A DNA stretch of 19,714 nucleotides, taken from NCBI GenBank assembly GCA_008501735.1, contig QQUF01000046.1, positions 1 through 19,714 on the forward strand, given 5' to 3'. The notes beneath the pieces are model-generated. The model was not told the origin of the DNA. It ran no database searches and saw only the letters and a program-made list of their open reading frames with translations. Source of the stretch: Calditrichota bacterium. Its GTDB lineage: Bacteria > CLD3. Positions 1-19,714 of the stretch are shown here, piece by piece. Position 1 is the first letter of the stretch. Each line of letters opens with the position of its first letter. Position numbers and translations under genes: made by a program.

Positions 1-3000
1 TTATTTTGCAATTCTTCATAGATTTCTCTTGCTTGCTGATTCTTAACCAACGCTTCTTCAAATTTTCCAATTTCATTATAAATTATAGAAGTAAAAAGTA
101 AAGCTGAGCAAATCCCAGCTTTATTATTCAATTGTCGGTTCAATTTTAACTGGATTTTTATGTTTTCAAGTGCCTTTTCATATTCGATAGACTGAATATA
201 AAATAAACAAAGTGATTTGTGAATTTCTGCAATTAGAGAAATATCACCTGTTTTCTTTGCAAAATAAACTGATTTTTGATAGTATTTTGATGCTTGCTCA
301 AATTCGCCCGAAAAAGCATAAATTCCACCTAAATTAAGCAAGGCATTAGTTGTTTGCCTATAAAATCCCATCTCTTCTGAAATTTCTCTTTCCTTTGAAA
401 AATAAAAAATTGCTTCTTCACTGTTTCCTTCCTTAAGGTGACGATGTGCAAATCCAAGAGCTTCTAATAATTCTGCATATCTTAATGGGTCGCTTAGTTT
501 CTCACAATTTTTTACTTGACCTTCCAAAAATTTTACGGCTTCAGCGTACTTACTTTGTAAAATTATCACTAAACCTAAGTTCAAATTGGCATCAAAAATT
601 TTCTTCTCATTTCTTAGTTTAGTAAAAATTTTAAGTGCTCGATTTAAAATTTCAATTGAATCGTTAACCTGTCCTAATTTTCGTAAATTAATAGCTTTGG
701 TCAACAAACCATTCCCAAATTCTAATTCTTCCCCTAATTCTTCAAATTCATTAATTGCTTTTTCAACGAATGAATTTGATTCTAAAAAATCACCTTTACT
801 TGCAAAAATATTAGCCAAAGAATCATTCGATTTTGCGATTCTCATTTTATCTTCACTTTTTTGAGAAAGCTCTAAAGATTTCAAGCAAATATTTTCGGCT
901 TCTTCCATTTTGCCTAAAGTGCTAAGGAGGTTTCCTTTTGCCAAAAAACAATCAATTAATTTTTTATTGTCTTGAGAATTTTCTAAAAATTCAATTGCAT
1001 TGTTAAGGTATTGTAATGCTTTTGCACTTGAATATTTTCCTGTAAGCACTTCACTAGCTTTGATACAATATTTTATAGCTTTTTCAGAATTTCCGCATTG
1101 ATAAAAATGCTCTGCTAAATCTTCGATGACTTCAATTTTGTTTGAAGAAAATTTATTTTCAAGAAATTCACCAGCTTTTTTGTGTAATTCTAATTTAGCT
1201 TTTGGAATGAGATTTTTTTCAAGAGTTTCGCGGATTGAATCGTGAGTAAAGCTAAAACTATTTTTGCCAACCTTTTCCAAGAACCTCAAAGAGAAAGCTG
1301 CTTTCAGGCTCTTTTTTACACTTTCCTTTGAGTTGTTTGAAATTTCGTAAAATGTCTCTTCTCCAAAATTTTTGCCAAGAATCGAAGCAACTTGCAATGA
1401 CTCAACAACATCTTTTCCTAATAAAATCAGACGCTCATTAATCACCGAAGAAATCGTGCTTGGAATTTCAACTTTCGTCAAAGAGTCCAAATTTAAATCC
1501 CAATTTCCATTTTGGTCTGTGAGCAAATCTTTCTCGTAAAGATTGTAAATTATTTCTTGAGTAAAAAGTGGACTTCCTTTCGTTTTCTCAAAAATAAATT
1601 CCGCAAATTCTGTTTCAATAATGTCAGTTTTCCCAAGAATTGAAGTAAGAATTTGGGCAATTTCCTCAAGATTAAGGGGTTTTAATTCAATGATTTCAGG
1701 TTTGTAATCGGCTTGAATTTCTGACCAAATTTTAGCAAAAGGCGAATTCTTAATCGCACGAGTTCTAAAATTTCCGACAAAAAGGATAGCTGAGTTTTCC
1801 AAATTACGAAACATTTGAAGCAACCACTTTGCACTCAATTCATCAGCCCATTGCAAGTCTTCGATGTTTAAAATCAGAATTTTATCTTTTGAAAGGTTTA
1901 TCAAAAAATTGATTAAAGAATTAAACAAACGAATTTCGCCGTCTTGCCCTTTTAATTCATCAATTTTCTCAATCTTTTTCATAAAGTTCATTTGAGAAAG
2001 TGGCGGATAAATTTTCACAAAATCCCAAGCAAATCTTCCCAAAGTCTCTGCTTTCTTCTTATCGGAAAACGAGGAAATAATGTTAACAGCTTTTGAAAAA
2101 ATATTCACAAGAGGCTCAAAAGAAGTTCCATTTTTAGAACATTTTGCTTCAAGCAGATTTGCGTTTTGCAAATTTAAACCAACACGAAATTCTGTCCAAA
2201 GTTTTGATTTTCCAATTCCAGATTCACCCAAAATGAAAACGCCTTTTGCACTTCCTTTCCCAACTTCTGAAAAGGCTTTTTCTAAAACTTTTAATTCATT
2301 TTCTCTTGAAACAAAAATTGAAGGTAAAAGATAAGATTTAGCTTTTCCGATTTCCTTAAAATCACCTTTTTTGAGAAAATTATTCAATTCTCTTGAGACT
2401 TCGCTTGCACTTTGGAATCTGTCGTTTGGGTTCTTCTCTAACAATTTTAGAATAATTTTTTCAATGGTTGTCGGCAAATCGGGAAAAACCTGCCTTGGCG
2501 AAATTATTGGTGAACGAAGATGAGCTAAAGAAATTTCCCCAAGCGAGTTACCGTTTATCGGAAAAACGTCAGTTACTAATTTGTAAAACAAAATTCCAAG
2601 TGAGTAAAGGTCGCTTCTATGGTCAATTTTTCCTGAATCTTGGCATTGTTCAGGTGAGGAATATTTTGCAGTTCCAAGAAAAGCTCCAGAAGCTGTTAAG
2701 GTAGAAGAAGTGTCAAGTTTCACGAGGTCAAAATCTGTAATCTTGATTTGGCCATCTTTTGTCTCTAAAATATTTGCAGGTTTCAAATCTCTGTGAACAA
2801 TTCCATTTTGATGGAGTGCTTCAATTCCATTTGCAATTTGGATAATTTTTGAGATTTTTTCTTGTAGAGACGCAAGATTTTGCGTCTCTACGATGGAATT
2901 ATCTTTTCCAACAGACGCACTTCTGTGCGTCTCTACGGAATCCACAAATTCCATCACAAAACCGATTTCGTCTTTTTCCTCATACCATTCAATCATTTTT

Positions 3001-3188
3001 ACACAATTTGGGTGCGAGACTTTCTGTGCAGACTCAAAACCACGTTTGATTCTTTTAATTTCTTTTGGGCTTTTGTAATTCTCGTGAATTAATTTTAGTG
3101 CGTAAAATTCTCCGTTAGTGGATTTTTTAACTTTGTAAACTGTTCCGAAAGTTCCAGAAGCAATTTTGGAAATTTTATTGTAGGGCAT
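1..3188 (-). CDS. Giant Ser/Thr protein kinase - STAND-like ATPase - TPR regulator (3' end off window)
   Basis: The minus-strand frame is open from an ATG at 3188 to the window edge, giving 1062 residues without a stop, so the C-terminus is missing. Residues 1-~275 form a Hanks-type kinase: glycine loop SGTFGTVYKV, lysine in YALKLI (about K32), catalytic HRDLKPAN (D134), TDFDLVK in place of DFG (D152), then GTAKYSSPEQ. A STAND/AAA-type ATPase follows, with Walker A GESGIGKSK near 320 and Walker B ILNIEDLQWAD near 440. From about 690 to the edge come TPR-like helical repeats. It is closely related to the complete 1682-residue protein at 9231-14279, so GAF and sigma-54 domains probably follow off window (inference). 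Residues 85-109 are encoded by two palindromic repeat copies and make this protein 14 residues longer than its paralogue there. The ribosome site is weak (AAAGAAAA before ATG). The start is fixed by alignment with the paralogue. It lies 202 bases after an exported propeller gene, as does the paralogous pair. Confidence 0.93.
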   Translation of the reverse strand, partial: MPYNKISKIASGTFGTVYKVKKSTNGEFYALKLIHENYKSPKEIKRIKRGFESAQKVSHPNCVKMIEWYEEKDEIGFVMEFVDSVETHRSASVGKDNSIVETQNLASLQEKISKIIQIANGIEALHQNGIVHRDLKPANILETKDGQIKITDFDLVKLDTSSTLTASGAFLGTAKYSSPEQCQDSGKIDHRSDLYSLGILFYKLVTDVFPINGNSLGEISLAHLRSPIISPRQVFPDLPTTIEKIILKLLEKNPNDRFQSASEVSRELNNFLKKGDFKEIGKAKSYLLPSIFVSRENELKVLEKAFSEVGKGSAKGVFILGESGIGKSKLWTEFRVGLNLQNANLLEAKCSKNGTSFEPLVNIFSKAVNIISSFSDKKKAETLGRFAWDFVKIYPPLSQMNFMKKIEKIDELKGQDGEIRLFNSLINFLINLSKDKILILNIEDLQWADELSAKWLLQMFRNLENSAILFVGNFRTRAIKNSPFAKIWSEIQADYKPEIIELKPLNLEEIAQILTSILGKTDIIETEFAEFIFEKTKGSPLFTQEIIYNLYEKDLLTDQNGNWDLNLDSLTKVEIPSTISSVINERLILLGKDVVESLQVASILGKNFGEETFYEISNNSKESVKKSLKAAFSLRFLEKVGKNSFSFTHDSIRETLEKNLIPKAKLELHKKAGEFLENKFSSNKIEVIEDLAEHFYQCGNSEKAIKYCIKASEVLTGKYSSAKALQYLNNAIEFLENSQDNKKLIDCFLAKGNLLSTLGKMEEAENICLKSLELSQKSEDKMRIAKSNDSLANIFASKGDFLESNSFVEKAINEFEELGEELEFGNGLLTKAINLRKLGQVNDSIEILNRALKIFTKLRNEKKIFDANLNLGLVIILQSKYAEAVKFLEGQVKNCEKLSDPLRYAELLEALGFAHRHLKEGNSEEAIFYFSKEREISEEMGFYRQTTNALLNLGGIYAFSGEFEQASKYYQKSVYFAKKTGDISLIAEIHKSLCLFYIQSIEYEKALENIKIQLKLNRQLNNKAGICSALLFTSIIYNEIGKFEEALVKNQQAREIYEELQN
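2864..2891 (-). repeat. Palindromic REP/MITE-like unit inside kinase coding sequence (copy 1)
   Basis: A 28-base inverted repeat with perfect 12-base arms, GTAGAGACGCAA and TTGCGTCTCTAC, around a 4-base loop GATT. It is read in frame in the kinase gene and encodes roughly VETQNLASL, just after the hinge segment MEFVDS and before the helix leading to HRDLKPAN. A diverged copy sits at the same place in the paralogue (13997-14024), so this insertion predates the gene duplication. GTAGAGAC...GTCTCTAC palindromes are, from memory, common dispersed repeats in cyanobacteria and FCB-group genomes; this was not searched. Confidence 0.85.
2895..2936 (-). repeat. Second palindromic unit: 42-base in-frame insertion flanked by GGAAT
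   Basis: Against the paralogue, this stretch is extra sequence of exactly 42 bases (14 codons). It contains a second palindrome at 2909-2936: the arm GTGCGTCTCTAC is intact and the other arm, CAACAGACGCAC, matches 9 of 12. The block begins with GGAAT (2895) and is followed by GGAAT (2937), which looks like a target-site duplication or a slippage footprint. It keeps the reading frame of the kinase gene and adds the stretch ETHRSASVGKDNSI. Confidence 0.75.
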
Positions 3189-3275
3189 TTTAATTTTCTT
3201 TGGTTTGAGTTTAGAGCATTTTACCCGCCAATCGGGACAATTTTTATAAGACAAATTTCGTCTTTAGCGAGTCGA

Positions 3276-3298: not shown

Positions 3299-3334
3299 GG
3301 AAAACTTAAAACACAAATTGAAGTTTCACAAAAC

Positions 3335-3365
3335 AAAAGAGCCCAACAAAATTAATTGTCAAGCT
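3335..3365 (-). terminator. Terminator-like hairpin after exported propeller gene
   Basis: Read on the minus strand, AGCTTGACAA, a TTAATT loop and TTGTTGGGCT can form a 10-base stem with several G-U pairs, followed by CTTTTG. It sits 26 bases after the stop of the 4602-3391 gene. It is one of three copies of the same hairpin family (also 5103-5134 and 14342-14378), and the weakest because its U tract is short. It may act as a partial terminator or attenuator between the propeller gene and the kinase gene. Confidence 0.6.
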
Positions 3366-3390
3366 TTTTAATTGTAAGAGAGAGTAAAAA

Positions 3391-4602
3391 TTATTTGAGT
3401 AAAATCATTTTGTTTGTTTGAGTGAAAGTTCCTGCTGTGAGTTTGTAGAAGTAAGTTCCATTTGAGACAGACTTTCCGTTTTCGTCAGTTCCGTTCCAAA
3501 CAACATTGTGTGAACCTTCTTGTTGAAATCCTTTTGTGAGTTCTTTTACAAATTCACCTTTTATGTTGTAAATCTTAAGACTAACTCTCGTGTCTTTAGC
3601 AATTTGGTAAGAAATTGTTGTGCTTGGGTTGAAAGGGTTAGGGAAGTTTTGTGCTAATTTGTATTCTTTCTTAGAAATTACTTCTTCTTCACCAAGAACA
3701 AATTTTACAGCTTGAGATTGAGTTTCGTGTTTAGTTTCAAGCTCATTAGTTTCAACATCAGAAATGTAGTAAGTATAAAGTTCATTGTTTCTAAGTTGAG
3801 AATTATCAACAAACGAGTAGTTATTTTGGAAGGTTGAGTTTCCTTGTCCTAAAAGTTCATTATGACTTTTGTAAGAAGCAATTTGAATGAAGTTTCCGTT
3901 ACCTGTTTTTCTATAAACATTAAAACCTTCGTTTTCAGTCTCAGAAGCAGTTGACCAATTGAGTGAAATTGAATTTTCGATTTGACGAGCTGTGAAAGAA
4001 TTTAATTCAACAGAAAGTGGTGCATCATTAATTCCAATTGTAATTCCTATAGGAAAATCTAAACCGGTAACTAAATCTTCCACATTTGAGCCGTCTAAAT
4101 CTGCACGTTGGATTTTATTTGTTCCATCATCAATCCAATACATTTTTGAATTGGTTAAATCTAATGCGATTCCAACAGGAAGACTTAAACCTGTTGTAAC
4201 GAGGTCTTCTACATTAGAACCGTCTAAATCTGCTCTTTGGATTTTATCCGTTCCATAGTCAGTCCAATACATTTTTGAATTGGTTAAATCTAATGCGATT
4301 CCTTCAGGAGTATCTAATCCTGTAACAAGGTCTTGAACATTAGAGCCGTCTAAATCTGCTCTTTGGATTTTATCCGTTCCATCATCAACCCAATACATTT
4401 TTGAATTGGTTAAATCTACTGCGATTCCAACAGGAGTACTTAAACCTGTAGTAACAAGGTCTTCAACATTAGAACCGTCTAAATCTGCTCTTTGGATTTC
4501 ATTCGTTCCAGTATCAGTCCAATACATCTTAGTTGCAAATGAATTAGTGGCTAAAGCTAACCCTAAGATGAGAGTTAAAAGTAAAGTAGAGAGTTTTTTC
4601 AT
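3391..4602 (-). CDS. Exported YWTD-repeat protein with T9SS sorting tail (four repeats)
   Basis: 403 residues. An N-terminal signal peptide (MKKLSTLLLTLILGLALA, cleavage near ATNSFA) is followed by four tandem 42-43-residue YWTD/LDL-receptor-class-B-type repeats at about residues 24-193, each with KMYWxD and KIQRADLDGSNVEDLV. A fibronectin-III-like segment runs from about 195 to 300 (LNWSTASETENEGFNVYRK). The last ~85 residues are a T9SS type A sorting domain (LAQNFPNPFNPSTT to GTYFYKLTAGTFTQTNKMILLK). It should cross the inner membrane by Sec and be exported and surface-anchored or released by the T9SS. YWTD propellers normally need six blades, so four repeats is odd. The DNA of the repeats is almost identical (period 126 or 129 bases), suggesting recombinational contraction. 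The start is supported by AAGGA at 4611-4615, 8 bases from the ATG. The ligand is unknown. Confidence 0.93.
   Translation of the reverse strand: MKKLSTLLLTLILGLALATNSFATKMYWTDTGTNEIQRADLDGSNVEDLVTTGLSTPVGIAVDLTNSKMYWVDDGTDKIQRADLDGSNVQDLVTGLDTPEGIALDLTNSKMYWTDYGTDKIQRADLDGSNVEDLVTTGLSLPVGIALDLTNSKMYWIDDGTNKIQRADLDGSNVEDLVTGLDFPIGITIGINDAPLSVELNSFTARQIENSISLNWSTASETENEGFNVYRKTGNGNFIQIASYKSHNELLGQGNSTFQNNYSFVDNSQLRNNELYTYYISDVETNELETKHETQSQAVKFVLGEEEVISKKEYKLAQNFPNPFNPSTTISYQIAKDTRVSLKIYNIKGEFVKELTKGFQQEGSHNVVWNGTDENGKSVSNGTYFYKLTAGTFTQTNKMILLK
4023..4533 (-). repeat. Tandem 126/129-base coding repeats (YWTD blades)
   Basis: Four near-identical direct repeats encode the YWTD blades of the 4602-3391 protein. 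For example, the segment CTCTTTGGATTTTATCCG recurs at 4233 and 4359, 126 bases apart. The identity between units is clearly higher than between blades of the two six-repeat paralogues, which points to recent homogenisation or copy-number change. Confidence 0.85.
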
Positions 4603-4707: not shown

Positions 4708-4850
4708 CTACTTCAACAAAATCATCTTGTTAGTTTTAGTAAAAATTCTAACTGTGATTTTGTTGAAGTTAGTGCCATTTTAAGACAGACTTTCCGTTTT
4801 CGTCTGTTCCGTTTCAAAATGCTTCGTGTGGACCTTTGCTAAGTAGAACT
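4708..4850 (-). pseudogene. Decayed fragment of a T9SS sorting domain
   Basis: Minus-strand translation matches the last ~45 residues of the neighbouring T9SS tails but is broken. LSKGPHEAF is followed by TGA where the family has tryptophan, then NGTDENGKSV. A one-base frameshift comes next, and the other frame continues NGTNFNKITVRIFTKTNKMILLK with a TAG stop at 4708-4710. The closest relative by eye is the 4602-3391 tail, which shares the segment NGTDENGKSV. No signal peptide or repeat domain remains. A weak trace of the NVYRK-coding segment may lie at 4893-4916. This is the remnant of a further exported-protein gene, or of a duplicated tail. Confidence 0.85.
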
Positions 4851-4916
4851 TAATCCCTTAACTCGGTTTGAAAAAAATGAGCAATCCAATTCTGCTCAAA
4901 AACATTAAAATCTGCG

Positions 4917-4945: not shown

Positions 4946-5102
4946 GTCATTTATTTCAAATTCTTAAAAATGTCTAAAGTATTGTTTGGTAAAAGTTTGT
5001 AAAAACAAATCATAACGATTGAAATTTAAATATGAAATTTTATCTTGCAAATAAAAAATATTGAAAAAACGTTAGTAAGGTAATTTTTTTCTAACCGAAA
5101 AT

Positions 5103-5134
5103 AAAAAAAGCCCGACAAAATTAATTGTCAGGCT
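5103..5134 (-). terminator. Rho-independent terminator of the FG-GAP propeller gene
   Basis: On the minus strand AGCCTGACAA, loop TTAATT and TTGTCGGGCT form a 10-base stem with one G-U pair, directly followed by seven T. It lies 25 bases after the stop codon of the 7015-5159 gene. The same hairpin occurs after two other exported-protein genes in the window. Confidence 0.88.
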
Positions 5135-5158
5135 CCTTTAGTAAGAGAGAGAAAAAAA

Positions 5159-7015
5159 TTATTTTAATAAAATCATTTTGTTAGTTTGTGTGAAAGTTCC
5201 AGCAGAAATTTTGTAGAAGTAAGTTCCGCTTGAAACTTGGTTTCCAAAGCTGTCTGTTCCGTTCCAGTTTGCTGAATGAGAACCTTTGCTCATTTTTTCA
5301 TTTACAAGTTCTTTAACTAACTCACCTTTGAGGTTGTAAACTTGGAGTTTTACGTCTTGTGTTTTTGCAATTTGAAAATTGATTTTTGTGCTTGGGTTAA
5401 AAGGATTTGGAAAATTCTGTGCTAAAACGTAGTCGAGTTTAGTTTGTGCAATTTCTTCGTTTAGTGTGAATCTTACAGTTTGTGCTAATTTGACGTGCTT
5501 GGTTTCGAGTCCGTTAGTTTCAACATCAGAAATGTAGTAAGTGTAAGTTTCGCCGTTTCTGAGTTCTGAATTGTCAACAAAAGTGTAGTTGTTTGAAGTT
5601 GTAGAATTTAAAGCACCGAGAAGTTCTGAGTTTCCTTTGTAAGAAGCGATTTCTACAAAGTTACTGTTTCCAGTTTTTCTGTAAACGTTGAACCCTTCGT
5701 TGTCTTTTTCAGAAGCAGTAGTCCAATTGAGTTGAATTGTGTTTTCGATTTGACGAGCTTGGAAAGAATCAAGTTCAACTGCAAGAGGAAAATCTCCACC
5801 GTCAGCTGCAAAAAAAGATGCAGAACCGGAATCAGTGCCATTGTCATCGTCAAAAGAATTCCCTACAAAAATAATTTCACTACTTATTGCAACAGCTAAA
5901 CCGAAACCATCTGAAACTCCAAGTTCGCTTTGTGCAAGTTTAGTTTGTTGTGTCCACGTAACGCCACTTCTATTAAAAGAATATGCTGCACCAGAACTCA
6001 CGACTCCTGCATTATTGTTAGGAGCTCCAACTATAATGTTATCTCCTTCAATTCCTACCGAAGTGCCGAAGGCATCATTGATAGTTCCATCACTCGCAGT
6101 TAGTTTTGCTTGCTGACTCCAAGAGACTCCACTTCTTGTAAAGACGTAAGCTGAACCAGAGTTGCTTCCTCCATCATCGTCTTGGTAAGACCCAACAACC
6201 ACATAATCACCATCAATTGAAACTGAATATCCAAAAAAATCACTTGCTGCCGCATCACTTGCCGTAAGTTTTGCCTGTTCTGACCACGAAGTTCCACTTC
6301 TTGTAAAGACGTAAGCTGAACCGGATTCATTTCCTCCGTCATCATTTTTCCGAGCTCCAACAATTAAATCATCTCCTTTTATAGAAATAGAGCAACCAAA
6401 TTCATCAAAAGCTGCCGCATCACTTGCCGTAAGCTTTGCCTGTTCTGACCACGAAGTTCCACTTCTTGCAAAGACGTAAGCTGAACCGGAACTAAATGGT
6501 AAATCATCATTTGCCAACGCACCGACTGCGGCATAATCTCCGTCAATAGAAACTGTTACTCCGAATTCGTCAAGTGCAGCTGCATCACTTGCTGTTATTT
6601 TTGCTTGCTCTGTCCACGAAGTTCCACTTCTAACAAAAATGTAAGCAGAGCCTGAATTACTTCCGTTATCATCATTTTTATAAGCTCCAACAATTGCATA
6701 GTCTCCGCTGATACCAACAGAGATTCCAAAGTTGTCGTCTTCCGATGCATCACTTGCGGTAATTTTAGCTTGTTGTGCCCAGGTTGTTCCACTTCTTTTA
6801 TAAATGTAAGCAGAACCTGAATTATTTGTTCCATCGTCATCAAATTGAGCTCCAACAATTGCATATTCTCCATCAATAGAAACGGCTTCAGCAAATTTGT
6901 CGCCTGCAGCACCGTCTCCGGCAAAAATTTTTTCTTCATATTGTGCAAATGAGTTTGCAAAGATTCCAAGGCTAAGTGCTAAAGTTGGGATAAGTGTTTT
7001 TGTAAAAGTTTTCAT
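5159..7015 (-). CDS. Exported FG-GAP propeller protein with T9SS sorting tail
   Basis: 618 residues. The signal peptide MKTFTKTLIPTLALSLGIFA is cleaved near NSFA. Seven tandem ~53-residue FG-GAP-type repeats (about residues 35-400) follow the pattern DxFGxxVSIDGDYxxVGAxxDDDG, then NSGSAYVFxRSGTSW and EQAKLTASDAA. Seven units fit a closed integrin-alpha-like seven-bladed propeller, and the Asp/Asn-rich loops could bind calcium (inference). A fibronectin-III-like segment (LNWTTASEKDNEGFNVYRK) and a T9SS type A tail (LAQNFPNPFNPST to TNKMILLK) complete it. The C-terminal half is nearly the same as in the two YWTD paralogues, whereas the propeller is a different family: a clear domain swap on a shared export module. 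It lies 104 bases after the 8604-7120 gene and is probably co-transcribed with it. The ribosome site is weak (GGA, 8 bases before ATG). The ligand is unknown. Confidence 0.93.
   Translation of the reverse strand: MKTFTKTLIPTLALSLGIFANSFAQYEEKIFAGDGAAGDKFAEAVSIDGEYAIVGAQFDDDGTNNSGSAYIYKRSGTTWAQQAKITASDASEDDNFGISVGISGDYAIVGAYKNDDNGSNSGSAYIFVRSGTSWTEQAKITASDAAALDEFGVTVSIDGDYAAVGALANDDLPFSSGSAYVFARSGTSWSEQAKLTASDAAAFDEFGCSISIKGDDLIVGARKNDDGGNESGSAYVFTRSGTSWSEQAKLTASDAAASDFFGYSVSIDGDYVVVGSYQDDDGGSNSGSAYVFTRSGVSWSQQAKLTASDGTINDAFGTSVGIEGDNIIVGAPNNNAGVVSSGAAYSFNRSGVTWTQQTKLAQSELGVSDGFGLAVAISSEIIFVGNSFDDDNGTDSGSASFFAADGGDFPLAVELDSFQARQIENTIQLNWTTASEKDNEGFNVYRKTGNSNFVEIASYKGNSELLGALNSTTSNNYTFVDNSELRNGETYTYYISDVETNGLETKHVKLAQTVRFTLNEEIAQTKLDYVLAQNFPNPFNPSTKINFQIAKTQDVKLQVYNLKGELVKELVNEKMSKGSHSANWNGTDSFGNQVSSGTYFYKISAGTFTQTNKMILLK
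5800..6950 (-). repeat. Tandem ~159-base coding repeats (FG-GAP blades)
   Basis: Seven direct repeats encode the FG-GAP blades. Adjacent central units share long identical stretches, such as the segment encoding SGTSWSEQAKLTASDAAA, which implies recent unit duplication or homogenisation. The outer units, and especially the last one, are more diverged. Confidence 0.8.
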
Positions 7016-7079: not shown

Positions 7080-7110
7080 GACCTGAAAGGTTTTCAAAAC
7101 CTTTCAGGTC
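7080..7110 (-). terminator. Perfect 15-base-arm palindrome, probable terminator or attenuator
   Basis: The arms GACCTGAAAGGTTTT and AAAACCTTTCAGGTC surround a single base. On the minus strand the stem is followed by TTTTCC, and it begins 9 bases after the stop of the 8604-7120 gene. It can act as a terminator or as an mRNA-stabilising hairpin between two exported-protein genes. ACCTGAAAGGTTTT-type palindromes are, from memory, a common dispersed repeat in Bacteroidota; this was not searched. A shorter relative, AGGTTTT/AAAACCT, lies at 4674-4689. Confidence 0.7.
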
Positions 7111-8815: not shown

Positions 8816-8832
8816 AACAAGCTCTGTGCCAA
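8816..8832 (-). promoter_or_regulatory. Sigma-54-like promoter
   Basis: Minus strand TTGGCAC-AGAGC-TTGTT fits the -24/-12 consensus TGGCAC-N5-TTGC, with the invariant GG and correct spacing. The final C of -12 is T. A very similar element (TTGGCAT-AAAGC-TTGA) precedes the 15880-14396 gene. Adjacent genes encode sigma-54 activator domains, which supports the reading. The expected transcript start is near 8806, just before the small ORF. Confidence 0.55.
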
Positions 8833-9096: not shown

Positions 9097-9140
9097 TTCC
9101 TAATTTTGGGTAAAATTTGAATGTGTTTGGTGAGATTATA

Positions 9141-12200: not shown

Positions 12201-14279
12201 AATGTCGGCTAATTTAAGTCCATAATGAATTGACTTTTCTTGGTTTGATGCCTGTAAGAAATGTTCGAGTAATTCAGCCAGAATTTCACTTTCAGGATAA
12301 TTCGCTTCAAGGTAATTCCCGATTTCTGAATGATAAGTTTTAAAAACCTTTTGGTTAATTCCTTGTGAAATCCCTTCTCTAAATGATTCGTTCTCGAATT
12401 CAAAAATTCCCTCTTTATTTCTAATTAAAATTCCTTGAAGTTTTTGATTACTAAATTCTTCCTCAACTTTATTCTCGTTTAATAGCAAAATCTCCGCAAC
12501 AATTTTGCTATTAAAATACTTACCGAGTAAAGACCCAACTTCAAGAAGTTTCAACAAATTTTTATCAAATAATTTAAATCGTTCATTTACGACACTCTGA
12601 ATGGATTTGGGAAGTTTTAAGTCCCCAAAGTTTTCAGTGTTTAAATCCCAAACGCCTTTATCTTTTTTTAGTTTTTGGGTTTCAAATAGATGAAACATTA
12701 TTTCCTGAATTAAAAATACATTTCCACTTGTTCGTCTCAAAATTTCTTCACAAAAACTTGTGTTAACAGGCTCAGATTTTCCAAACATTTTCGTTAAGTA
12801 AGTTTTTACTTCTCCAAGTGAGAAATTATTAAGTTCTATTAAAAAAGTGTTTCCAAGCTCACTTTTAAAGGTTTCTAAATTATTATCGTCTTTAGTTACT
12901 GTTCCGATTAATAAAATTGAGTTGTTAGAAAGGCTCTTCGTTAGGTATTGTAAAAATTTTAGACTTTGTTTATCTATCCATTGCAAATCGTCAAAAAAGA
13001 AAACAAAAGTTTGGTTTTTCATTTGAATATTTTTGATAAGGGTTACAAAAGATTCAAAAACTTTTTCTTCTGAATCAATTCCTTTCATAATCTTTAATTC
13101 GTCTAAAAATTCAAAACATTTATTTCTTTCAAGAATTGGCAAAATAGCCGCCAAATGTCTTCCTAATGTTCCAATTTTTTCAGCTTGTTCTTTTGCTGAA
13201 AGGTTTCCAATTTGCTCTAAACATTGAGTTAGAATTAGTTGAAGAGGTTCAAAAATTTTTCCATCTTTTTTACAAGTCGTTTCAAAAATTAATTCTGAAT
13301 TTTGAGTTAAACCTAATTTGAATTCCTTCCACAATTTTGTTTTTCCAACTCCTTGTTCTCCACTCAACAAGACTGTTTTTAGTTTGCCATTTGAGACTTC
13401 AGAATAGATTTTGTTCAATTCTAAAAATTCTTTCCTTCTTCCCACAAAATCGGGAGTAAGGAGAAAATCTCCAAAGGTTTCTAAGTTTTCAACTTTTCCT
13501 TCTTTTAAAAAAGTGTTTAAGATTTTTGAAACTTCTTGAGCTGATTGAAACCTGTCTTTTGGGTCTTTTTTAAGAAGTTTAGAAATTACGGTGTTCAAAA
13601 CTTCGGGTAAATCGGGAACGAATTGTCTTGGGGAAATCAGAGGAGTTCTAATGTGTGCAAGTGCAATTTCAGCGAGAGAGTTTCCGTCAAAAGGAACTCT
13701 GCCACAAACTAATTGGTAAAAAAGAACACCAAGTGAATAAAGATCGCTTTTATAATCAACTTTTGTTGCACTTTGGCATTGTTCGGGAGAAGAATATTTT
13801 GCTGTTCCAAGAAAAGCTCCCGAAGCTGTTAGAGTAGAAGAATCATCAATTTTTACTAAGTCAAAGTCTGTAATTTTGATTTGACCTTCTTTTGTTTCGA
13901 GAATGTTTGCAGGTTTCAAATCCCTGTGAACGATTCCTTTTGAATGTAGAGCTTCAAGTCCATTTGCAATTTGAATTATTTTTGAGATTTTTTCTTGTAG
14001 AGAGGTAAGATTTTGCGTCTCTACAACAGAATCCACAAATTCCATAATAAAACCGATTTGGTCTTTTTCTTCGTACCACTCAATCATTTTTACACAATTT
14101 GGGTGCGAGACTTTTTGTGCAGTCTCAAAACCACGTTTGATTCTTTTAATTTCTTTTGGAGTTTTGTAATTCTCGTGAATGAGTTTTAGTGCGTAGAATT
14201 CACCGTTAGTGGATTTTTGAACTTTGTAAACGGTACCAAAAGTTCCAGATGCAATTTTGGAAATTATAGAATATGTCAT
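9231..14279 (-). CDS. Giant one-protein regulator: Ser/Thr kinase - STAND ATPase - TPR - GAF - sigma-54 AAA+ - HTH
   Basis: 1682 residues, complete. Kinase at 1-~260: SGTFGTVYKV, K32, HRDLKPAN (D120), DFD at 138-140 instead of DFG, SSPEQ. STAND-like ATPase: Walker A GEQGVGKT at 307-314, Walker B FFFDDLQW near 428. TPR helical repeats run from about 660 to 1110, and a GAF domain from about 1185 to 1330 (ends VIGALYLDR...FFENSDLEKV). Sigma-54 interaction AAA+: Walker A GETGTGKE near 1380, GSFSGA near 1430 where the family has GAFTGA, Walker B TLFLDEIAEL, then LREREDI-like PPLRERSEDI. A C-terminal Fis-type HTH (VLKALKKNNFHLKNTFQELG to LLKKHDI) closes it. I infer a cytoplasmic activator in which phosphorylation, nucleotide and ligand inputs control sigma-54 transcription. 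AAGAGA precedes the ATG. It follows the 15880-14396 propeller gene by 116 bases across a terminator. Confidence 0.95.
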   Translation of the reverse strand: MTYSIISKIASGTFGTVYKVQKSTNGEFYALKLIHENYKTPKEIKRIKRGFETAQKVSHPNCVKMIEWYEEKDQIGFIMEFVDSVVETQNLTSLQEKISKIIQIANGLEALHSKGIVHRDLKPANILETKEGQIKITDFDLVKIDDSSTLTASGAFLGTAKYSSPEQCQSATKVDYKSDLYSLGVLFYQLVCGRVPFDGNSLAEIALAHIRTPLISPRQFVPDLPEVLNTVISKLLKKDPKDRFQSAQEVSKILNTFLKEGKVENLETFGDFLLTPDFVGRRKEFLELNKIYSEVSNGKLKTVLLSGEQGVGKTKLWKEFKLGLTQNSELIFETTCKKDGKIFEPLQLILTQCLEQIGNLSAKEQAEKIGTLGRHLAAILPILERNKCFEFLDELKIMKGIDSEEKVFESFVTLIKNIQMKNQTFVFFFDDLQWIDKQSLKFLQYLTKSLSNNSILLIGTVTKDDNNLETFKSELGNTFLIELNNFSLGEVKTYLTKMFGKSEPVNTSFCEEILRRTSGNVFLIQEIMFHLFETQKLKKDKGVWDLNTENFGDLKLPKSIQSVVNERFKLFDKNLLKLLEVGSLLGKYFNSKIVAEILLLNENKVEEEFSNQKLQGILIRNKEGIFEFENESFREGISQGINQKVFKTYHSEIGNYLEANYPESEILAELLEHFLQASNQEKSIHYGLKLADIYEQQQIFNISIRYLLKILDFIENSNDEELQSNTYLKLGRIFFGINEVKKSEQYFTKASEKAKENSSVKASSLIGIGELKRVQREYDEAFKIYFQAKEVFEKIDNLVEVGRTYIRISFLYSFLNENEKAKIFLMKAKEIGKKTNSKNILGTVIFQEGKIASQKQEYEKAETLYKSSFQLLEEYGDITSIISYHFHMGSNYEKFHKYEKAKNQFNLCFEKSEEFGFNPGVIQSLGFLGRINLRERKLKDAKKYFIQASSKLSELNLLAYPWILNELAKVYFLIGDFEESESIIKKQIQICTKINSEQYLSQLYINYGELLYETKRYKEANDFYEKSFPLLEKVNDFENICFAHYLLSKSCFAKKDIHKAEKLCQKAFEYLGKDFESNILKTKVKIQKELIDFELGNKNEAINNLLELKRLTDSSEPKYEIAFELCKLFEEKKPPYLLEKKINFQKLKLETLDFFKNEFKTKELFFIKKKIDFLEEIEFKTNEIYPELISSLTNWLTPETVFDELLKFLLKETNSGSCQIILKNEKGFEPIAISSNLKDEEIEFSTTVLKKAIEEDKPTLLKNVLEIPELKENQSVIGKIFLSVIAVPLKVKNKVIGALYLDRLKIEKGFFENSDLEKVKSIANILSPVLQRQNEAIKMKIESEINKLGIFVGNSPEMQKVYSEIEEAAKVNFTVYIHGETGTGKELVANSLHKLSLRRNEPFIAINCSAIPKDLAESELFGHTKGSFSGATTDKKGKFELANKGTLFLDEIAELSLDIQAKLLRVIQENEVWKVGAEKPTKIKSRIVIATHKNLEEEVKKGNFRKDLFYRIAFLKIEIPPLRERSEDIIPLCYHFLRKFNKETGKKLKGFTQDSINILLAQSWEGNVRELENLVALCFVKTKSETLISLRDLNINTLENPQEIKPSQSNENLQRSELEEKLSGDFDLNEKIGILEKHLVLKALKKNNFHLKNTFQELGVNNKRLDRLLKKHDIDVSSLKNS
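13997..14024 (-). repeat. Palindromic REP/MITE-like unit inside kinase coding sequence (paralogous copy)
   Basis: The ends GTAGAGA and TCTCTAC, and most of the core, match the unit at 2864-2891, with two mismatches in one arm (GTAGAGAGGTAA). It lies at the same codon position and encodes VETQNLTSL (about residues 86-94), in the loop after the kinase hinge. Arm mismatches suggest it is now drifting as ordinary coding sequence. Confidence 0.8.
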
Positions 14280-14341
14280 AAAAAATCTCTTACTTATTGT
14301 TACATCGAAAACTTAAAACAGAAACTTTATTTTCACAAAAC

Positions 14342-14378
14342 AAAAAAAGCCTGGCAAAATTAATTGTCAGACTTTTTT
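14342..14378 (-). terminator. Rho-independent terminator of the six-repeat propeller gene
   Basis: On the minus strand AGTCTGACAA, loop and TTTGCCAGGCT form a ~10-base stem with one mismatch, followed by seven T. It lies 17 bases after the stop at 14396. The sequence beyond it (about 14312-14341) also resembles 3301-3337, showing that the whole propeller-to-kinase spacer was duplicated with the genes. Confidence 0.82.
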
Positions 14379-14395
14379 GAAAGAGAGTAAGAAAT

Positions 14396-15880
14396 TTATT
14401 TGAGTAAAATCATTTTGTTAGTTTGAGTGAAAGTTCCTGCTGAAATTTTGTAGAAGTAAGTTCCGCTTGAAACTTGATTTCCAAAGTTGTCAGTTCCGTT
14501 CCAATTTGCTGAATGTGAGCCTTTGTTCATTTTTTCATTCACAATTTCTTTCACAAGTTCACCTTTTAAGTTGTAAACTTGGAGTCTTACGTCTTGTGTT
14601 TTTGCAATTTGGAAATTGATTTGTGTGCTTGGGTTAAAGGGATTAGGGAAATTTTGTGCTAAAACGTAGTGGAGTTTTGTTTGAGCAATTTCTTCGTCAA
14701 GTGTAAATTTTACGGTTTGAGCTTGCTCTTCGTGTTTAGTTTCAAGTCCGTTAGTTTCGACATCAGAAATGTAGTAAGTGTAAGTTTCGCCGTTTCTAAG
14801 TTCTGAGTTGTCAACAAAAGTGTATTTGTTTGAAACTGTTGAATTCAAAGCACCGAGAAGTTCAGAGTTACCTTTGTAAGAAGCGATTTGAGTGTAAAAA
14901 CTGTTTCCTGTTTTTCTGTAAAGATTAAATCCTTCATTTTCAGTTTCAGAAGCTGTTGACCACGTAAGTTGAATTGAGTTTGCAATCTGACGAGCTTGAA
15001 ATGAATCTAATTCAACAGATAAAGGAGTATCTCCAAAATCTAAAGCTATTCCATATGGATTGCTAATTCCACCAACAATTAAGTCCTCGACTCCTGTTCC
15101 GTCTAAATTGGATCTTTGAATTTTATCAGTACCACTATCTGCATCATTAGTCCAATAAATTTTTGAATTAGTTAAATCTATAACAATTCCTCTAACTATT
15201 TCCAATCCTGTTACTAAATCCTCTACAGAAGTTCCATCTAGATTTGCTCTTTGAATTTTTTTAGTTCCTCCATCTACCCAATACATTTTAGAATTTGCAA
15301 CATCAAGTGTAATATCAAAAGGAGTAGTTAATCCTGTGACCAAATCTTCAACAGTTGTTCCATCTAAGTTTGCTCTTTGGACCTTATTGCTACCTTCATC
15401 TACCCAATACATTTTTGAGTTAACAGCATCAACTTCTATTCCTATTGGAGCAGACAAACCTGATGTAATTAATTCTTCAACTGTAGATCCATCTAAATTA
15501 GCTCTTTTAATTTTTTGAAAACCAACGTCTGTCCAATACATTTTTCCGTTATCTACATCAAGGGATAATCCTCTTGGACTTGCTAAACCTGTTGTAACAA
15601 GATCTTCAACATTTGAGCCATCTAAATCTGCTCTTTGAATTTTATTACTTCCGCCACCATTAGACCAATAAACTTTAGAATTGTTTTTGTCAACGTCAAC
15701 TGCAAACGGATTTGAAGTAGATGAAGAAATGTTTTCAATATTTGTACCATCCGAATCCGCTCGTTTTACTAAATCTCCAGGAGCATCTAACCAGTACATT
15801 TTTTGTCCAAAAGATTGAGAAGTAAATGCTAAGCCTAAGCCAATGCTTAAAGTAAGAAGTGTAGTGTTAAAAGTTTTCAT
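14396..15880 (-). CDS. Exported six-repeat YWTD propeller protein with T9SS sorting tail
   Basis: 494 residues. The signal peptide MKTFNTTLLTLSIGLGLAF is cleaved near SQSFG. Six YWTD repeats (residues ~26-280) run from KMYWLDAPGDLVKRADSDGT through KMYWVDEGSNKVQRANLDGT to KIYWTNDADSGTDKIQRS. The first and last are the most diverged, as expected for a closed propeller. A fibronectin-III-like segment (LTWSTASETENEGFNLYRK) and a T9SS type A tail (LAQNFPNPFNPST to MILLK) follow. The start is supported by AAAGGA (15888-15893), 7 bases from the ATG. A sigma-54-like promoter lies at 15951-15966, some 70 bases upstream, and a strong terminator follows. It is paired with the kinase/sigma-54 regulator downstream. 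I infer a secreted or surface protein, with ligand unknown. The blade DNA is more diverged than in the 4602-3391 paralogue. Confidence 0.93.
   Translation of the reverse strand: MKTFNTTLLTLSIGLGLAFTSQSFGQKMYWLDAPGDLVKRADSDGTNIENISSSTSNPFAVDVDKNNSKVYWSNGGGSNKIQRADLDGSNVEDLVTTGLASPRGLSLDVDNGKMYWTDVGFQKIKRANLDGSTVEELITSGLSAPIGIEVDAVNSKMYWVDEGSNKVQRANLDGTTVEDLVTGLTTPFDITLDVANSKMYWVDGGTKKIQRANLDGTSVEDLVTGLEIVRGIVIDLTNSKIYWTNDADSGTDKIQRSNLDGTGVEDLIVGGISNPYGIALDFGDTPLSVELDSFQARQIANSIQLTWSTASETENEGFNLYRKTGNSFYTQIASYKGNSELLGALNSTVSNKYTFVDNSELRNGETYTYYISDVETNGLETKHEEQAQTVKFTLDEEIAQTKLHYVLAQNFPNPFNPSTQINFQIAKTQDVRLQVYNLKGELVKEIVNEKMNKGSHSANWNGTDNFGNQVSSGTYFYKISAGTFTQTNKMILLK
15035..15805 (-). repeat. 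Tandem ~126-135-base coding repeats (YWTD blades)
   Basis: Six diverged direct repeats encode the YWTD blades of the 15880-14396 protein. Unit length varies by a few codons, and the units share codings for YW, IQRANLDG and VEDLVTGL. Confidence 0.75.
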
Positions 15881-15950: not shown

Positions 15951-15966
15951 TCAAGCTTTATGCCAA
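15951..15966 (-). promoter_or_regulatory. Sigma-54-like promoter
   Basis: Minus strand TTGGCAT-AAAGC-TTGA resembles the -24/-12 consensus TGGCAC-N5-TTGC, with GG and spacing intact and the last C replaced by A. It shares the core TTTGGCAYARAGCTTG with the element at 8816-8832. It lies about 70 bases upstream of the ATG at 15880 and 165-197 bases downstream of the paired repeats at 16131-16163, a typical distance for enhancer sites. Confidence 0.5.
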
Positions 15967-16130
15967 ATAGTTTTTGTAATCAATAGACATTTCTTAACTA
16001 ATGAATAAACAATTACTTGTATAAATTTTAAAAATTTAAACGAAAAAAATATTGATGAGCCAGACTGGAACAGTCGAGCATACAGTTTTGTCTCAAGTTA
16101 TGTATTTACAATATTTTATCTAAGTGAGCT

Positions 16131-16163
16131 GAATTGGCTCAATGGTTCAATTGGGCTCAATTG
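16131..16163. repeat. Paired near-palindromic repeats AATTGG(G)CTCAAT
   Basis: GAATTGGCTCAATG (16131-16144) and CAATTGGGCTCAATTG (16148-16163) are direct copies of one motif. The second is a near-perfect 16-base palindrome with one mismatched pair. They overlap the stop codon of the upstream regulator gene. They could be activator sites for the 15951-15966 promoter, or a small repeat insertion that altered the gene's 3' end. Confidence 0.45.
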
Positions 16164-19100
16164 AAATTTGCGAATCTTCTACGACTTGTTCCTAATTCTT
16201 CAGCAGCTTTACTTTTATTGCCATTATTTCGTTTTAAGGTTTCAAGTAAAATAGCATCTGTAAGGATTTCTAATTTTGCGGTAAGTTTTTTTCCTTCTAC
16301 AAACTTAAGAACATCTGCAAGTTCATCTAATGAATAAAACTCATTTTGTGGATGACGAGTTTTTGATTCTGAAACCAAATTCAACAAATTTTCAATTTTC
16401 TCAGAATCTAAAATTTCATTTAGCGAAATCGGTTCTTCGCTTTTGTGTTTGACTACGACTTTGGCAATTGTGTTTTCCAATTCTCTTACATTTCCTTTCC
16501 ATTCATAAGAAAGCATTCCAATAATTGCTTCTTTAGAAAATGAAAGTTTTTTCCTATTCAACTCTTTAGAATACTTTTGCAGAAAAAAGTTTGCGAGAAG
16601 ATGAATGTCTTCATTTCTTTCTCTAAGAGGTGGAATTTCAATTTTCAAAATATTAAGCCTATAAAATAAATCTTCTCTAAAATTACCTTTTTTGACTTCT
16701 TCTTTTAAATCCCTATTTGTCGCACAAACTATTCTTGTATTAATTTCTATTTCATTTTCGCCACCAACTCGCCATAATTTGTTTGTTTGTAAAACTCGTA
16801 AAAGTTTAGCTTGAAGGTCTAATGAAAGTTCGGCGATTTCGTCTAAAAACAATGTTCCTTGTGAAGCTAATTCAAACTTGCCTTTTTTAGTTGCAATTGC
16901 TCCACTAAATGCTCCTTTCTCGTGTCCAAAAAGTTCACTCTCAGCTAAATCATTTGGAATTGCAGAACAATTTACAGCAATAAATTTATTCTTTCTTCTT
17001 AATGAAAGTTTGTGAAGAGCTTCTGCAACTAACTCCTTACCTGTTCCTGTTTCCCCATAAATGTAAACTGTAAAATTGACTTCAGCAGCATCTTCAATTT
17101 GAGTATAAACTTCTTGCATCTTTGGACTATTTCCAATAAATATTCCAAGATTATGAACTTCGGAATTGATTTGTAGATTTAAAATTTCGTTTTGCCTTTT
17201 AAGAATTGGGCTGAGGAATTGAGCTATGTATTTTACTTTTTCCAAATCAGAATCAGTAAAAAACCCTTTACTAATTTCTGTTCTGTCTAAATAAATTGCA
17301 CCAATTGGTAGGTTTTCAATAAATAAAGGTACAGCAATTACAGAAAGAAAAATTTTACCGATTATACTTTTGTTTTGACTTAATTCGGGCACTTCTAAAA
17401 CATTCTTAAGCAGTGTGGCTTTCTGCTCAGAAATCGCTTTTTTTAGAACTGTTGTCGAAAAATTTATATCTTCATCATTTAGATTTTGAGTAGTTTCACA
17501 GACCTCAAAACCATTTTCTTTTTCTAAAATTATTTGGCAATTATTAGCATCTGTTTCTTGTGTAATGTATTTAATAATTTCTGAAAATGCAGTCTCAGGA
17601 GTGATGAATTTCAATAATGAATTTAAGAATTGTGGTTTTAAACTAAATTGATTTTTGCCCATTTCTTTTAGAGTATTTACTCTGTTGCGAAGATAAAACT
17701 CATTCTTTTTTTCCAAATGCTTTGTGTAAAGCCTAATTGAATTTTCTCTAAACGAATCAATCTGTTCCATAAAACGGAAAATAGGATACTCATTTAAGCA
17801 AATGAAAATATTATAGTTAATACTTGCTTTTTGCTTTAAATCTAAATTTTCGTTTTTGAGTAAAGCTATCAAATTTTCAATCGCAAAATCCTTGTTGCCT
17901 TTCTTAAATTCTATCAAGAATTTAAGTTCTTTAGAATTATTAATTATTGAAGAATCATTAACCTTTTTAGCAATTTCTAAACATTCATTATTTAAGTTCA
18001 AAGCTTTGTCTAATTCATTTCGGAAATAATATAACTCAGCTAAAGAAATTAAGAAAATAGCTGTTGTTTCTTCTGCTTTTAAAAGTTTTGAAATTGAAAT
18101 TGAATCTTCAAAGTATTTTAGGGATTTATCAAAAAATATTCGATTGTTTTCAATTACTCCTCTTTCTTTATAAAGTGTTCCAAGATTATAATATGCAATT
18201 CCCAGACTTGGCTTTTCATTTAACTTTTTTAGAGCAGAAATTGCTTCCTTATAAAGTTTTTCAGCGTTTTCATTATCTCCATCATTATGGTAAATCGTTG
18301 CTAACCCTACGACTTGAGAAGTTTGAGTCGAAAAAGCTCCAATTTCTTTTGATAAATTATAAGCTTTTAATAAATAAAATCTCGCTTTTTCCAAATTTTC
18401 AAATTCATTGTAAACTACTCCCAAATTCCCTAAAGTCATTGCCATTTCATTTTTATTTTTGCCTTTCTCTTGAATTTCAAGAGCTTTTTCCAAATTGTAG
18501 ATTGAACGTTCATAATCCTTTTCTAAATAAAAAATATGAGCAATGTTTACATAAATTTTAGAAGTACTTTTTAAATTATTTTTTGCTAAAAATAACTTTT
18601 CTGCTTGATAAAAATATTCTTTTGCTTTTTCTAATTTTCTTTGTCTCACAAATGGAATTGCCATATCTGCAAGAAACTCTGCTTCCCAAAATTTTTGAGA
18701 TAATTCTATTGATAAATCCAATCCTTTAGAATAAAAATTTAATGCTTCATCAAAATTCCCCTTCAAGCTGTGAATTCTTCCAATAACTTGTGCAGATTTA
18801 AAATAAATGTTGTGGTTTGAGAGATTTTGTGAAAGTTGTAAAGATTCAGAATAAAATTCCATAGCCTTTTCAACTTTCGACGTTTTAAACTCTAAGTCAC
18901 CAATTTCAACTAAACTTCTTAAATAATCTTCATTCATTTTTAAAGTTTTCGCTAATTCCAAGACTTTGTAGTAAAAAGGCTTTGCTCTTTCGTAAAGAAA
19001 TAATTCTTTAAATTTTTCTCCAGTTTTCAAACAAAATTCAAAAGACTTTTTCTTAACTCTAGCTTCAAAGAAATGATTTGCAAGTTCTTCCAAAATTTCT

Positions 19101-19714
19101 GTTTCAACAAAGTTTTTCTCTAAGTAAGCTGCAATCTTTTTGTGAAGTGATTTCTTAATTTTTGTATTTATTGAATTTGAAATACTTTCGCCAAAAGAAT
19201 CATTCACAAATTCAAAAATCTCATTTTCAGATTTATCTAAAATGCCTTTAAGAATTGGGTCTTTAAGTTTACTCTCAATTTTATCTTCTTTTACGGCTAA
19301 AATTCCAACAATTACTTTAGTTGTAAAGTGTTTTCCAAGCAAAGAGCCAATTTCGAGAAGGTTTCGTATGTCTTTAGGTAAATAATTAAGACGTTCTTCT
19401 ACAACACTTTGAATTGATTTTGGAAGTATTAATTCTGAAAATGATTCTTCTCCTAAATCCCAATTTCCTTCACTTTTATTTAGTTTTTTAGTTTCCAAAA
19501 GGTGGAACATCAACTCTTGAATAAACAAAACATTTCCACTTGTTCGTTTTAAGATTTCTTCACAAAACCTTGTATTTACAGGGTCAGCATTGCCAAACAT
19601 CTTTGTTAAAAATTCTCTAATTTCTTCTAATTTAAAGTTTTCAAGAGAAAGAATTTCTGAGTCTTTGATTACAATTTTTATTTTGTCAATTTCTTCAATT
19701 CTAATTGTTCCGAT
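16157..19714 (-). CDS. Giant TPR - GAF - sigma-54 AAA+ regulator, N-terminus off window, HTH cut short
   Basis: The frame is open to the window edge (1185 residues visible), so the kinase and Walker motifs lie outside. It begins within the STAND-like ATPase region (IGTIRIEEID, then FLTKMFG matching its paralogue). TPR helical repeats run from about 200 to 650 and GAF from about 690 to 840 (VIAVPLFIENLPIGAIYLDR). In the sigma-54 AAA+ domain, Walker A GETGTGKE is near 885, GAFSGA near 930 and TLFLDEIAEL follows, then PPLRERNEDI. The Fis-type HTH (ETLKRNNGNKSKAAEELGTS) ends at RRRFANFN and a TGA, about 8-10 residues short of a full recognition helix. The GAFSGA loop is nearer the GAFTGA consensus than its paralogue's. 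It is followed by the propeller gene at 15880. A truncated HTH may weaken DNA binding (inference). Confidence 0.93.
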   Translation of the reverse strand: MGTIRIEEIDKIKIVIKDSEILSLENFKLEEIREFLTKMFGNADPVNTRFCEEILKRTSGNVLFIQELMFHLLETKKLNKSEGNWDLGEESFSELILPKSIQSVVEERLNYLPKDIRNLLEIGSLLGKHFTTKVIVGILAVKEDKIESKLKDPILKGILDKSENEIFEFVNDSFGESISNSINTKIKKSLHKKIAAYLEKNFVETEILEELANHFFEARVKKKSFEFCLKTGEKFKELFLYERAKPFYYKVLELAKTLKMNEDYLRSLVEIGDLEFKTSKVEKAMEFYSESLQLSQNLSNHNIYFKSAQVIGRIHSLKGNFDEALNFYSKGLDLSIELSQKFWEAEFLADMAIPFVRQRKLEKAKEYFYQAEKLFLAKNNLKSTSKIYVNIAHIFYLEKDYERSIYNLEKALEIQEKGKNKNEMAMTLGNLGVVYNEFENLEKARFYLLKAYNLSKEIGAFSTQTSQVVGLATIYHNDGDNENAEKLYKEAISALKKLNEKPSLGIAYYNLGTLYKERGVIENNRIFFDKSLKYFEDSISISKLLKAEETTAIFLISLAELYYFRNELDKALNLNNECLEIAKKVNDSSIINNSKELKFLIEFKKGNKDFAIENLIALLKNENLDLKQKASINYNIFICLNEYPIFRFMEQIDSFRENSIRLYTKHLEKKNEFYLRNRVNTLKEMGKNQFSLKPQFLNSLLKFITPETAFSEIIKYITQETDANNCQIILEKENGFEVCETTQNLNDEDINFSTTVLKKAISEQKATLLKNVLEVPELSQNKSIIGKIFLSVIAVPLFIENLPIGAIYLDRTEISKGFFTDSDLEKVKYIAQFLSPILKRQNEILNLQINSEVHNLGIFIGNSPKMQEVYTQIEDAAEVNFTVYIYGETGTGKELVAEALHKLSLRRKNKFIAVNCSAIPNDLAESELFGHEKGAFSGAIATKKGKFELASQGTLFLDEIAELSLDLQAKLLRVLQTNKLWRVGGENEIEINTRIVCATNRDLKEEVKKGNFREDLFYRLNILKIEIPPLRERNEDIHLLANFFLQKYSKELNRKKLSFSKEAIIGMLSYEWKGNVRELENTIAKVVVKHKSEEPISLNEILDSEKIENLLNLVSESKTRHPQNEFYSLDELADVLKFVEGKKLTAKLEILTDAILLETLKRNNGNKSKAAEELGTSRRRFANFN

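Follow-up and report, generated by a model that had tools for sequence, protein, structure and literature searches.

Exported proteins with a C-terminal sorting signal are controlled through sigma-54 by the PrsK/PrsR system, whose targets are PEP-CTERM sorted proteins (PMC1569441), and floc formation involves an RpoN-dependent PEP-CTERM gene (PMC9850573). In passages of Francke 2011 (PMC3162934), sigma-54 is presented as a controller of the bacterial exterior, with polysaccharides, flagella, lipopolysaccharide, lipoproteins and wall precursors among its targets. Here we describe a stretch of 19,714 nucleotides (nt) from a Calditrichota bacterium (the window; contig QQUF01000046.1, called C47 below), in which genes for beta-propeller proteins with type IX secretion system (T9SS) sorting tails lie among genes for giant sigma-54 activators. 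This combination had been reported in an earlier note, and was confirmed by open reading frames (ORFs), Pfam and NCBIfam. The window is quite probably part of a tandem array of cassettes, in each of which a giant activator switches the adjacent T9SS surface genes through repeated dyads and a sigma-54 promoter. We read these best as paralogous sigma-54 circuits, each serving surface proteins and largely insulated from the others, and infer the regulation itself. To our knowledge, little is known about the regulation of T9SS surface proteins; here regulator, putative sites, promoter and target lie side by side, so that the links between them can be read from the sequence.

Like PrsK/PrsR, the cassettes combine sigma-54 with an activator carrying a Fis-type helix-turn-helix (HTH), have targets with a C-terminal sorting signal, and contain a long upstream gap holding both the activator site and a −24/−12 promoter. 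In PrsK/PrsR, however, the membrane histidine kinase is a protein apart from the response regulator PrsR, and most targets have one common motif upstream, whereas here sensor and activator form one cytosolic chain, sorting is by T9SS, and each activator apparently has its own dyads and an adjoining target. As the regulators had no receiver domain in Pfam or NCBIfam matches and the targets carry T9SS tails, they were not assigned to the PrsK/PrsR-PEP-CTERM system. The last third of the giant regulator resembles NorR/NifA activators (GAF–AAA+–HTH), and its best NCBIfam models were NorR, NifA and NtrC, all below their equivalog cut-offs; unlike those activators, it is preceded by about 1200 extra residues containing a Ser/Thr kinase, a STAND ATPase and TPR repeats. 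Cyanobacterial HstK proteins have a STAND/TPR middle. They are Ser/Thr kinases with GAF and HisKA domains (PMC2176072) and share with the giant regulators the N-terminal kinase, a GAF domain lying close to the C-terminal output and a large family expansion, but their output is a histidine kinase, as against Sigma54_activat and HTH here, and membership of this family was rejected. The mycobacterial PknK-type kinase is fused to a MalT-like STAND module (PMC1262709), and MalT itself combines a TPR-like sensor with an NTPase switch (PMC4381067); neither has a sigma-54 AAA+ domain. The target class agrees with the surface and exterior components of Francke 2011, of which the relevant passages mention neither T9SS cargo nor a kinase–STAND fusion. 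Titles and abstracts of literature combining type IX secretion, sigma-54 and enhancers revealed no such regulatory link. No description of a kinase–sigma-54 fusion was found in the literature searched, of which coverage was incomplete, and the fusion may have been noted before.

The complete regulator in the window (9231–14279; this and the window's other genes, promoters, dyads, leaders and terminator-like hairpins lie on the minus strand) has 1682 residues, and the domain order given in the earlier note was borne out by Pfam and NCBIfam. A Ser/Thr kinase (Pkinase, residues 3–248; 13536–14273) is followed by a STAND-type ATPase (AAA_16, residues 278–458; 12906–13448; E value 2.6e-21), a TPR array (about 10740–12362), a GAF domain (residues 1197–1330; 10290–10691) and a sigma-54 AAA+ domain (Sigma54_activat, residues 1352–1517; 9729–10226; E value 6.7e-70), with a further match to AAA_lid_14. 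The chain ends in a Fis-type HTH (about 9255–9392), through which NCBIfam NorR/NtrC models align to about residue 1674. The sigma-54 AAA+ domain contains the Walker motif GETGTGK, LFLDEI and the GAFTGA loop in the form GSFSGA, with GAFSGA as the other form seen; as expected for sigma-54 activators, the genome encodes RpoN, in a single gene, and −24/−12 promoters are present at the targets. The window kinase retains YALK with the catalytic lysine, HRDLK and DFD (a variant of DFG), and by these motifs is predicted to be an active Ser/Thr protein kinase. The ATPase is of the MalT-like STAND type, with Walker A GEQGVGKT and AAA_16 followed by TPR_12 repeats; TPR_MalT matched with an E value of 4.4e-10, below its gathering score.

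Behind the complete regulator lies a gap of 626 nt containing AATAGTC-N5-GACTATT dyads, which are putative enhancer sites of this regulator. Two are exact (8957–8975 and 8886–8904) and occur nowhere else in the genome, and two are degenerate (9043–9097, comprising 9043–9061 with 2 mismatches and another at about 9079–9097). They are followed by the −24/−12 promoter TTGGCACAGAGCTTGT (8817–8832), 212 nt upstream of the start of a YWTD propeller gene (7120–8604), the predicted target. Behind the regulator at 16157–19714, TGAGCC/GGCTCA-like repeats (16069–16170), putatively a degenerate enhancer but not significant in the dyad test, precede the sigma-54 promoter TTGGCATAAAGCTTGA (15951–15966), 70 nt upstream of the predicted target, a second YWTD propeller gene (14396–15880). 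That gene is followed by a terminator-like hairpin (14337–14378), next to a regulator leader (TTGTGAAA...TTTCTGTTTTAAGTTTTC, 14300–14336) that also precedes the regulators C5 and C24:16389, neither of which has a propeller gene directly before it. A second copy of this terminator and leader spacer is present at 3300–3370, with 79–87% identity over about 40 nt to 14307–14378. The spacer duplication seen earlier is therefore real, but it does not represent a shared regulatory site; as read from its sequence, the spacer is the terminator of the preceding propeller gene joined to a leader common to regulator genes. With promoter and dyads behind the regulators, and a terminator and their own leader before them, the unit consists of regulator, enhancer, promoter, propeller gene and terminator.

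A strict sigma-54 pattern (YTGGCAYN5TTGW) was searched across the 4.14-Mb draft genome, using the reversed pattern as control. It matched 36 times, against 9 for the control, and only two of these sites lay inside ORFs longer than 150 residues. T9SS or propeller genes followed 16 of the 36 sites, including four in an FG-GAP array on contig C38 (binomial 6e-10, at a base rate of 7% assumed on the basis of T9SS tail counts, 150 being listed and 243 candidates). The regions read contained 21 giant activators, among 37 full-length Sigma54_activat matches. Nine strict sites fell within the 5533 nt of gaps behind them, where 0.05 were expected, and the next gene encoded a T9SS or propeller protein in 9 of the 16 cases with a next gene on the same strand (binomial 3e-7 at the same 7%). 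Targets other than propellers behind such sites were also secreted (MAM/CARDB, CarboxypepD_reg and SBBP propeller proteins).

Further strict sites (C11, C12, C44:107220 and C59:47179) precede proteins that have signal-peptide-like starts but no clear T9SS tail, suggesting a sigma-54 regulon biased towards exported proteins generally. In the C38 array, four tandem FG-GAP genes each come with a sigma-54 site of their own and with GTACTGA-N4-TCAGTAC-like dyads. Orthologous giant regulators of two genera (C48:22238 and G1C239) both have a sigma-54 site 48–49 nt before a secreted CarboxypepD_reg protein; between C48:22294 and its orthologue G1C239, conservation extends to the sigma-54 site, and no dyad was found in the short gaps.

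To score the dyads, exact 7-mer repeat counts, which were too weak in several gaps, were replaced by a repeated-dyad test against dinucleotide shuffles (100 shuffles, floor p=0.01), with 15 T9SS genes lacking a strict sigma-54 site as control. The floor was reached behind regulators C47:9231 (the complete regulator of the window), C5, C13, C1, C38 and C10, whereas 2 of the 15 control genes fell below 0.05, in a set that includes the propeller gene behind C24:25511 with its imperfect sigma-54 site. The dyads differed from gap to gap: AATAGTC-N5-GACTATT, TGTTACA-ATT-TGTAACA, TGGCTCT-N5-GGAGCCA, TTTAGGC-N5-GCCTAAA, ACGTAAC-N6-GTTACGT and TGTACGA-N4-TCATACA. When three of the sets (AATAGTC, TGTTACA-N3-TGTAACA and TTTAGGC-N5-GCCTAAA) were searched genome-wide, the best sites lay in the gap of origin and were nearly confined to it. 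The three best TTTAGGC-N5-GCCTAAA sites of this genome all fell in the C1 gap, and two-mismatch matches to AATAGTC and TTTAGGC elsewhere were no commoner than for the control.

In several cases, like recognition helices tended to accompany like dyads. The C1 regulator and G1C132 of the sister genus both have the helix IDNKRLDRLL with TTTAGGC/GCCT, and the sister paralogues C5 and C24:16389 have TGTTACA and TGTAACA; C47:9231 combines VNNKRLDRLL with AATAGTC, and C32:259601 combines IDFKRMQRLL with TGGCGATTCGCCA. A Mantel test on 11 regulators with half-sites assigned by hand gave a Pearson correlation of 0.34 (p=0.014), which is suggestive only of HTH and dyad similarity going together. Behind the C32:259601 regulator, the TGGCGATTCGCCA dyads and a sigma-54-like TCGGCACGAAAATAGCT are followed by just a hairpin with a T run, and this locus may be an orphan circuit or encode a small RNA.

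In a tree of the AAA+ domain, all propeller-linked regulators of this genome fell into one clade with 100/100 support; of its 15 members, 13 belong to this genome and 2 to the sister genus. Most of the remaining giant regulators have an apparent orthologue in the other of the two genera. Identity within the clade was 61% for the kinase, 38% for STAND, 23% for TPR, 48% for GAF, 60% for the sigma-54 AAA+ domain and 32% for the HTH. Conserved kinase and sigma-54 ATPase domains, with TPR and HTH the most divergent, form the pattern that divergence of inputs and outputs round a common engine would produce. The regulator-then-target layout recurs in the sister genus. Outside the phylum, genome G011, related at domain level only, encodes a 1572-residue regulator followed by a T9SS-tailed protein. 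Also outside the phylum, related regulators from six genomes, which belong to three families, had GTTAY/RTAAC dyads behind them, a motif chosen post hoc after inspection (19 in total, against a shuffle mean of 3.7 and maximum of 10). These six regulators also have a sigma-54-like site, one of them cut by a contig end, and a signal-peptide-like gene comes next in five of the six, the contig ending in the sixth; the layout was absent from regulators of family f17 in the same group. A single scan of genome contigs with the regulator as query matched just one ordinary sigma-54 ATPase domain, in a Nitrospirota metagenome-assembled genome. Random gene neighbours of homologues had been named beforehand as an observation that would speak against regulation of adjacent genes. 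Varied neighbours were seen outside the propeller-linked clade, but not within it; in seven genomes of the same class, giant regulators have no adjoining T9SS target and mostly lie behind a gene for a 324-residue protein.

Together these observations suggest how a cassette would work. Its first part would be a giant cytosolic sigma-54 activator expressed from the leader and promoter common to the regulators, and its second a gap with repeated dyads, bound as an enhancer by the HTH of that activator. A sigma-54 promoter would form the third part, and one or more T9SS-exported beta-propeller genes, usually closed by a terminator, the fourth. By analogy with MalT (PMC4381067), the TPR superhelix would sense the input and the STAND ATPase would act as an ADP/ATP switch. 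The signal would be gated or amplified by the kinase and the GAF domain. The sigma-54 AAA+ domain would then assemble on the dyads and remodel RNA polymerase–sigma-54 at the adjoining promoter, so that the surface protein would be produced solely when its input is present. With copies diverging in TPR (input) and in HTH and dyads (output) round a conserved catalytic core, duplication would give rise to many parallel, largely insulated circuits. The proposal in the earlier note of a paralogous, self-contained system controlling propellers is thus well supported at the level of sequence, by the sigma-54 promoters, the mostly private dyads, the clade expansion and the conserved layout; beyond this, DNA binding and activation are what we infer, as are the kind of input and the roles of kinase and GAF. 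More tentatively, and with somewhat less than even confidence, a lineage-specific set of a dozen or more insulated circuits derived from one duplicated activator may display different T9SS propellers according to internal signals. The cell would then have a programmable surface coat, in which every circuit combines a single activator and a single enhancer set with one surface protein or a small group of them. The arrangement suggests many parallel switches, each governing its own part of the cell surface, and the paralogous circuits offer a natural data set on the joint divergence of duplicated transcription factors and their enhancer sites, and on the avoidance of cross-talk.

The confinement of all linked regulators to one clade would also be expected if the neighbourhood were a by-product of repeat-driven block duplication, with the regulators acting elsewhere or not on the adjoining genes. 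Several contigs break inside kinase genes, and exact stretches of up to 125 nt are common to paralogues, which shows active duplication or conversion and makes assembly breaks at regulator genes easy to understand; on C38, identical 400-nt blocks lie upstream at 9979 and 12478, indicating recent duplication. Block duplication would not, however, yield gap-specific dyads confined to single gaps, concentrate sigma-54 sites in those gaps or give the same layout outside the phylum, and we consider this explanation unlikely. All T9SS sigma-54 promoters might instead be driven in trans, in the manner of PrsR, by a single common regulator or by a small number of conventional activators of the NtrC type, with the giant regulators nearby by chance. 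Many ordinary sigma-54 activators are indeed encoded in the genome, but the dyads vary by gap and no common enhancer motif was found, whereas PrsR regulons have one motif (PMC1569441), making control in trans rather improbable. The adjacency of propeller and regulator described in the earlier note stands, but its direction does not, since control by the regulator most likely acts on the gene downstream of it. A functional tie to the propeller in front, for example as an extracellular sensor, would fit the propeller-then-regulator order, which is also common because the cassettes are in tandem. Such a tie is nevertheless very improbable: a terminator and the regulator's own leader stand between the two, this leader is present at C5 and C24:16389 although neither directly follows a propeller gene, sigma-54 sites and dyads are found downstream of the regulators, and a T9SS-exported protein cannot directly contact a cytosolic regulator.

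Several observations weigh against cassettes in which each giant activator switches its adjacent genes. In the regions read, no giant regulator adjoins the sigma-54/T9SS genes at C10:47527, C32:48522, C44:180957, C46:142852 and C55:38802, as control in trans would allow. C24:25511, a regulator of the clade beside a propeller gene, has an imperfect sigma-54 site only, C55:79480 has a variant site (GTGGCAT...TTGTG), and the clade members C50:78478 and C32:259601 have no adjoining gene on the same strand. Dyads were not detected behind C48:107796, and those behind the 16157–19714 regulator were not significant (dyad test p=0.76). The HTH–dyad correlation was weak by rank (Spearman 0.21, p=0.07, with the same hand-assigned half-sites). 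Since one clade expanded, the adjacency counts are not independent of one another; the 16 sites before T9SS and propeller genes are not all independent either, four of them belonging to the tandem duplicates of the C38 array.

The tandem array of cassettes appears to extend beyond the window. The window is the entire contig C47, and both its edges are therefore assembly breaks. Its left end shares a 29-nt overlap with the end of contig C10, and across the junction a regulator ORF stays open for 1757 residues from stop to stop. It joins the N-terminal part in the window (3–3254; kinase, STAND ATPase and TPR, by ORF and Pfam) to a C-terminal half on C10 (70594–72633), behind which lie four further propeller genes. 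There is a small chance that this join is mistaken and links two paralogues. All large genes of the window are on the minus strand in the ORF list. In order of transcription they are the C-terminal regulator part (19714–16157), a YWTD propeller (15880–14396), the complete regulator (14279–9231), a YWTD propeller (8604–7120), an FG-GAP propeller (7015–5159), a short YWTD protein (4602–3391) and the N-terminal part of the third regulator (3254–3). Pfam and NCBIfam matches gave no pointer to a phage, mobile-element or defence origin, for which no dedicated search was made.

The regulator at 16157–19714 comprises the C-terminal 1185 residues of a protein cut by the contig end, with Pfam matches that include HTH_8. 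Compared with paralogues its HTH stops early (SRRRFANFN, then stop), truncating the last helix (16157–16200). This early end and the degenerate dyads behind it possibly reflect a decaying circuit.

The T9SS sorting tail TIGR04183 was matched in all four exported proteins of the window, at 36–41 bits against a cut-off of 23, and SprA of the T9SS machinery is encoded in the genome. The protein encoded at 7120–8604 (494 residues) has a six-bladed propeller of the YWTD type (low-density lipoprotein (LDL) receptor class B), a fibronectin type III-like region and the T9SS tail, as judged from Pfam, NCBIfam and a structural model. An AlphaFold model of this protein, made from the three YWTD proteins of the window only, showed the six-bladed propeller at residues of about 28–281, with a mean confidence (pLDDT, predicted local distance difference test) of 72.5 overall and about 88 in the propeller; its closest PDB matches were the YWTD propellers of LRP6, LRP4 and LDLR. 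Pfam and NCBIfam likewise identified a YWTD propeller with a T9SS tail at 14396–15880 (494 residues), an FG-GAP propeller with a T9SS tail at 5159–7015 (618 residues) and a short YWTD protein with a T9SS tail at 3391–4602 (403 residues). The FG-GAP gene is preceded by a hairpin at about 7080–7110, has no sigma-54 site of its own upstream, and is followed by a terminator-like hairpin (5098–5139). Upstream of the short YWTD gene, neither a sigma-54 site nor a repeated dyad was found. Between these two genes, at about 4715–4860, lies a broken-frame remnant of propeller-tail sequence.

A palindrome, GTAGAGACGCAAGATTTTGCGTCTCTAC, lies within the kinase gene at 2857–2891, where it adds about 14 in-frame residues relative to a paralogue, and a degenerate copy is present at 13997–14031. 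Its relatives are dispersed over the genome, one of them inside the C24:25511 kinase gene, and resemble a REP/MITE-like element (repetitive extragenic palindrome or miniature inverted-repeat transposable element) in coding sequence.

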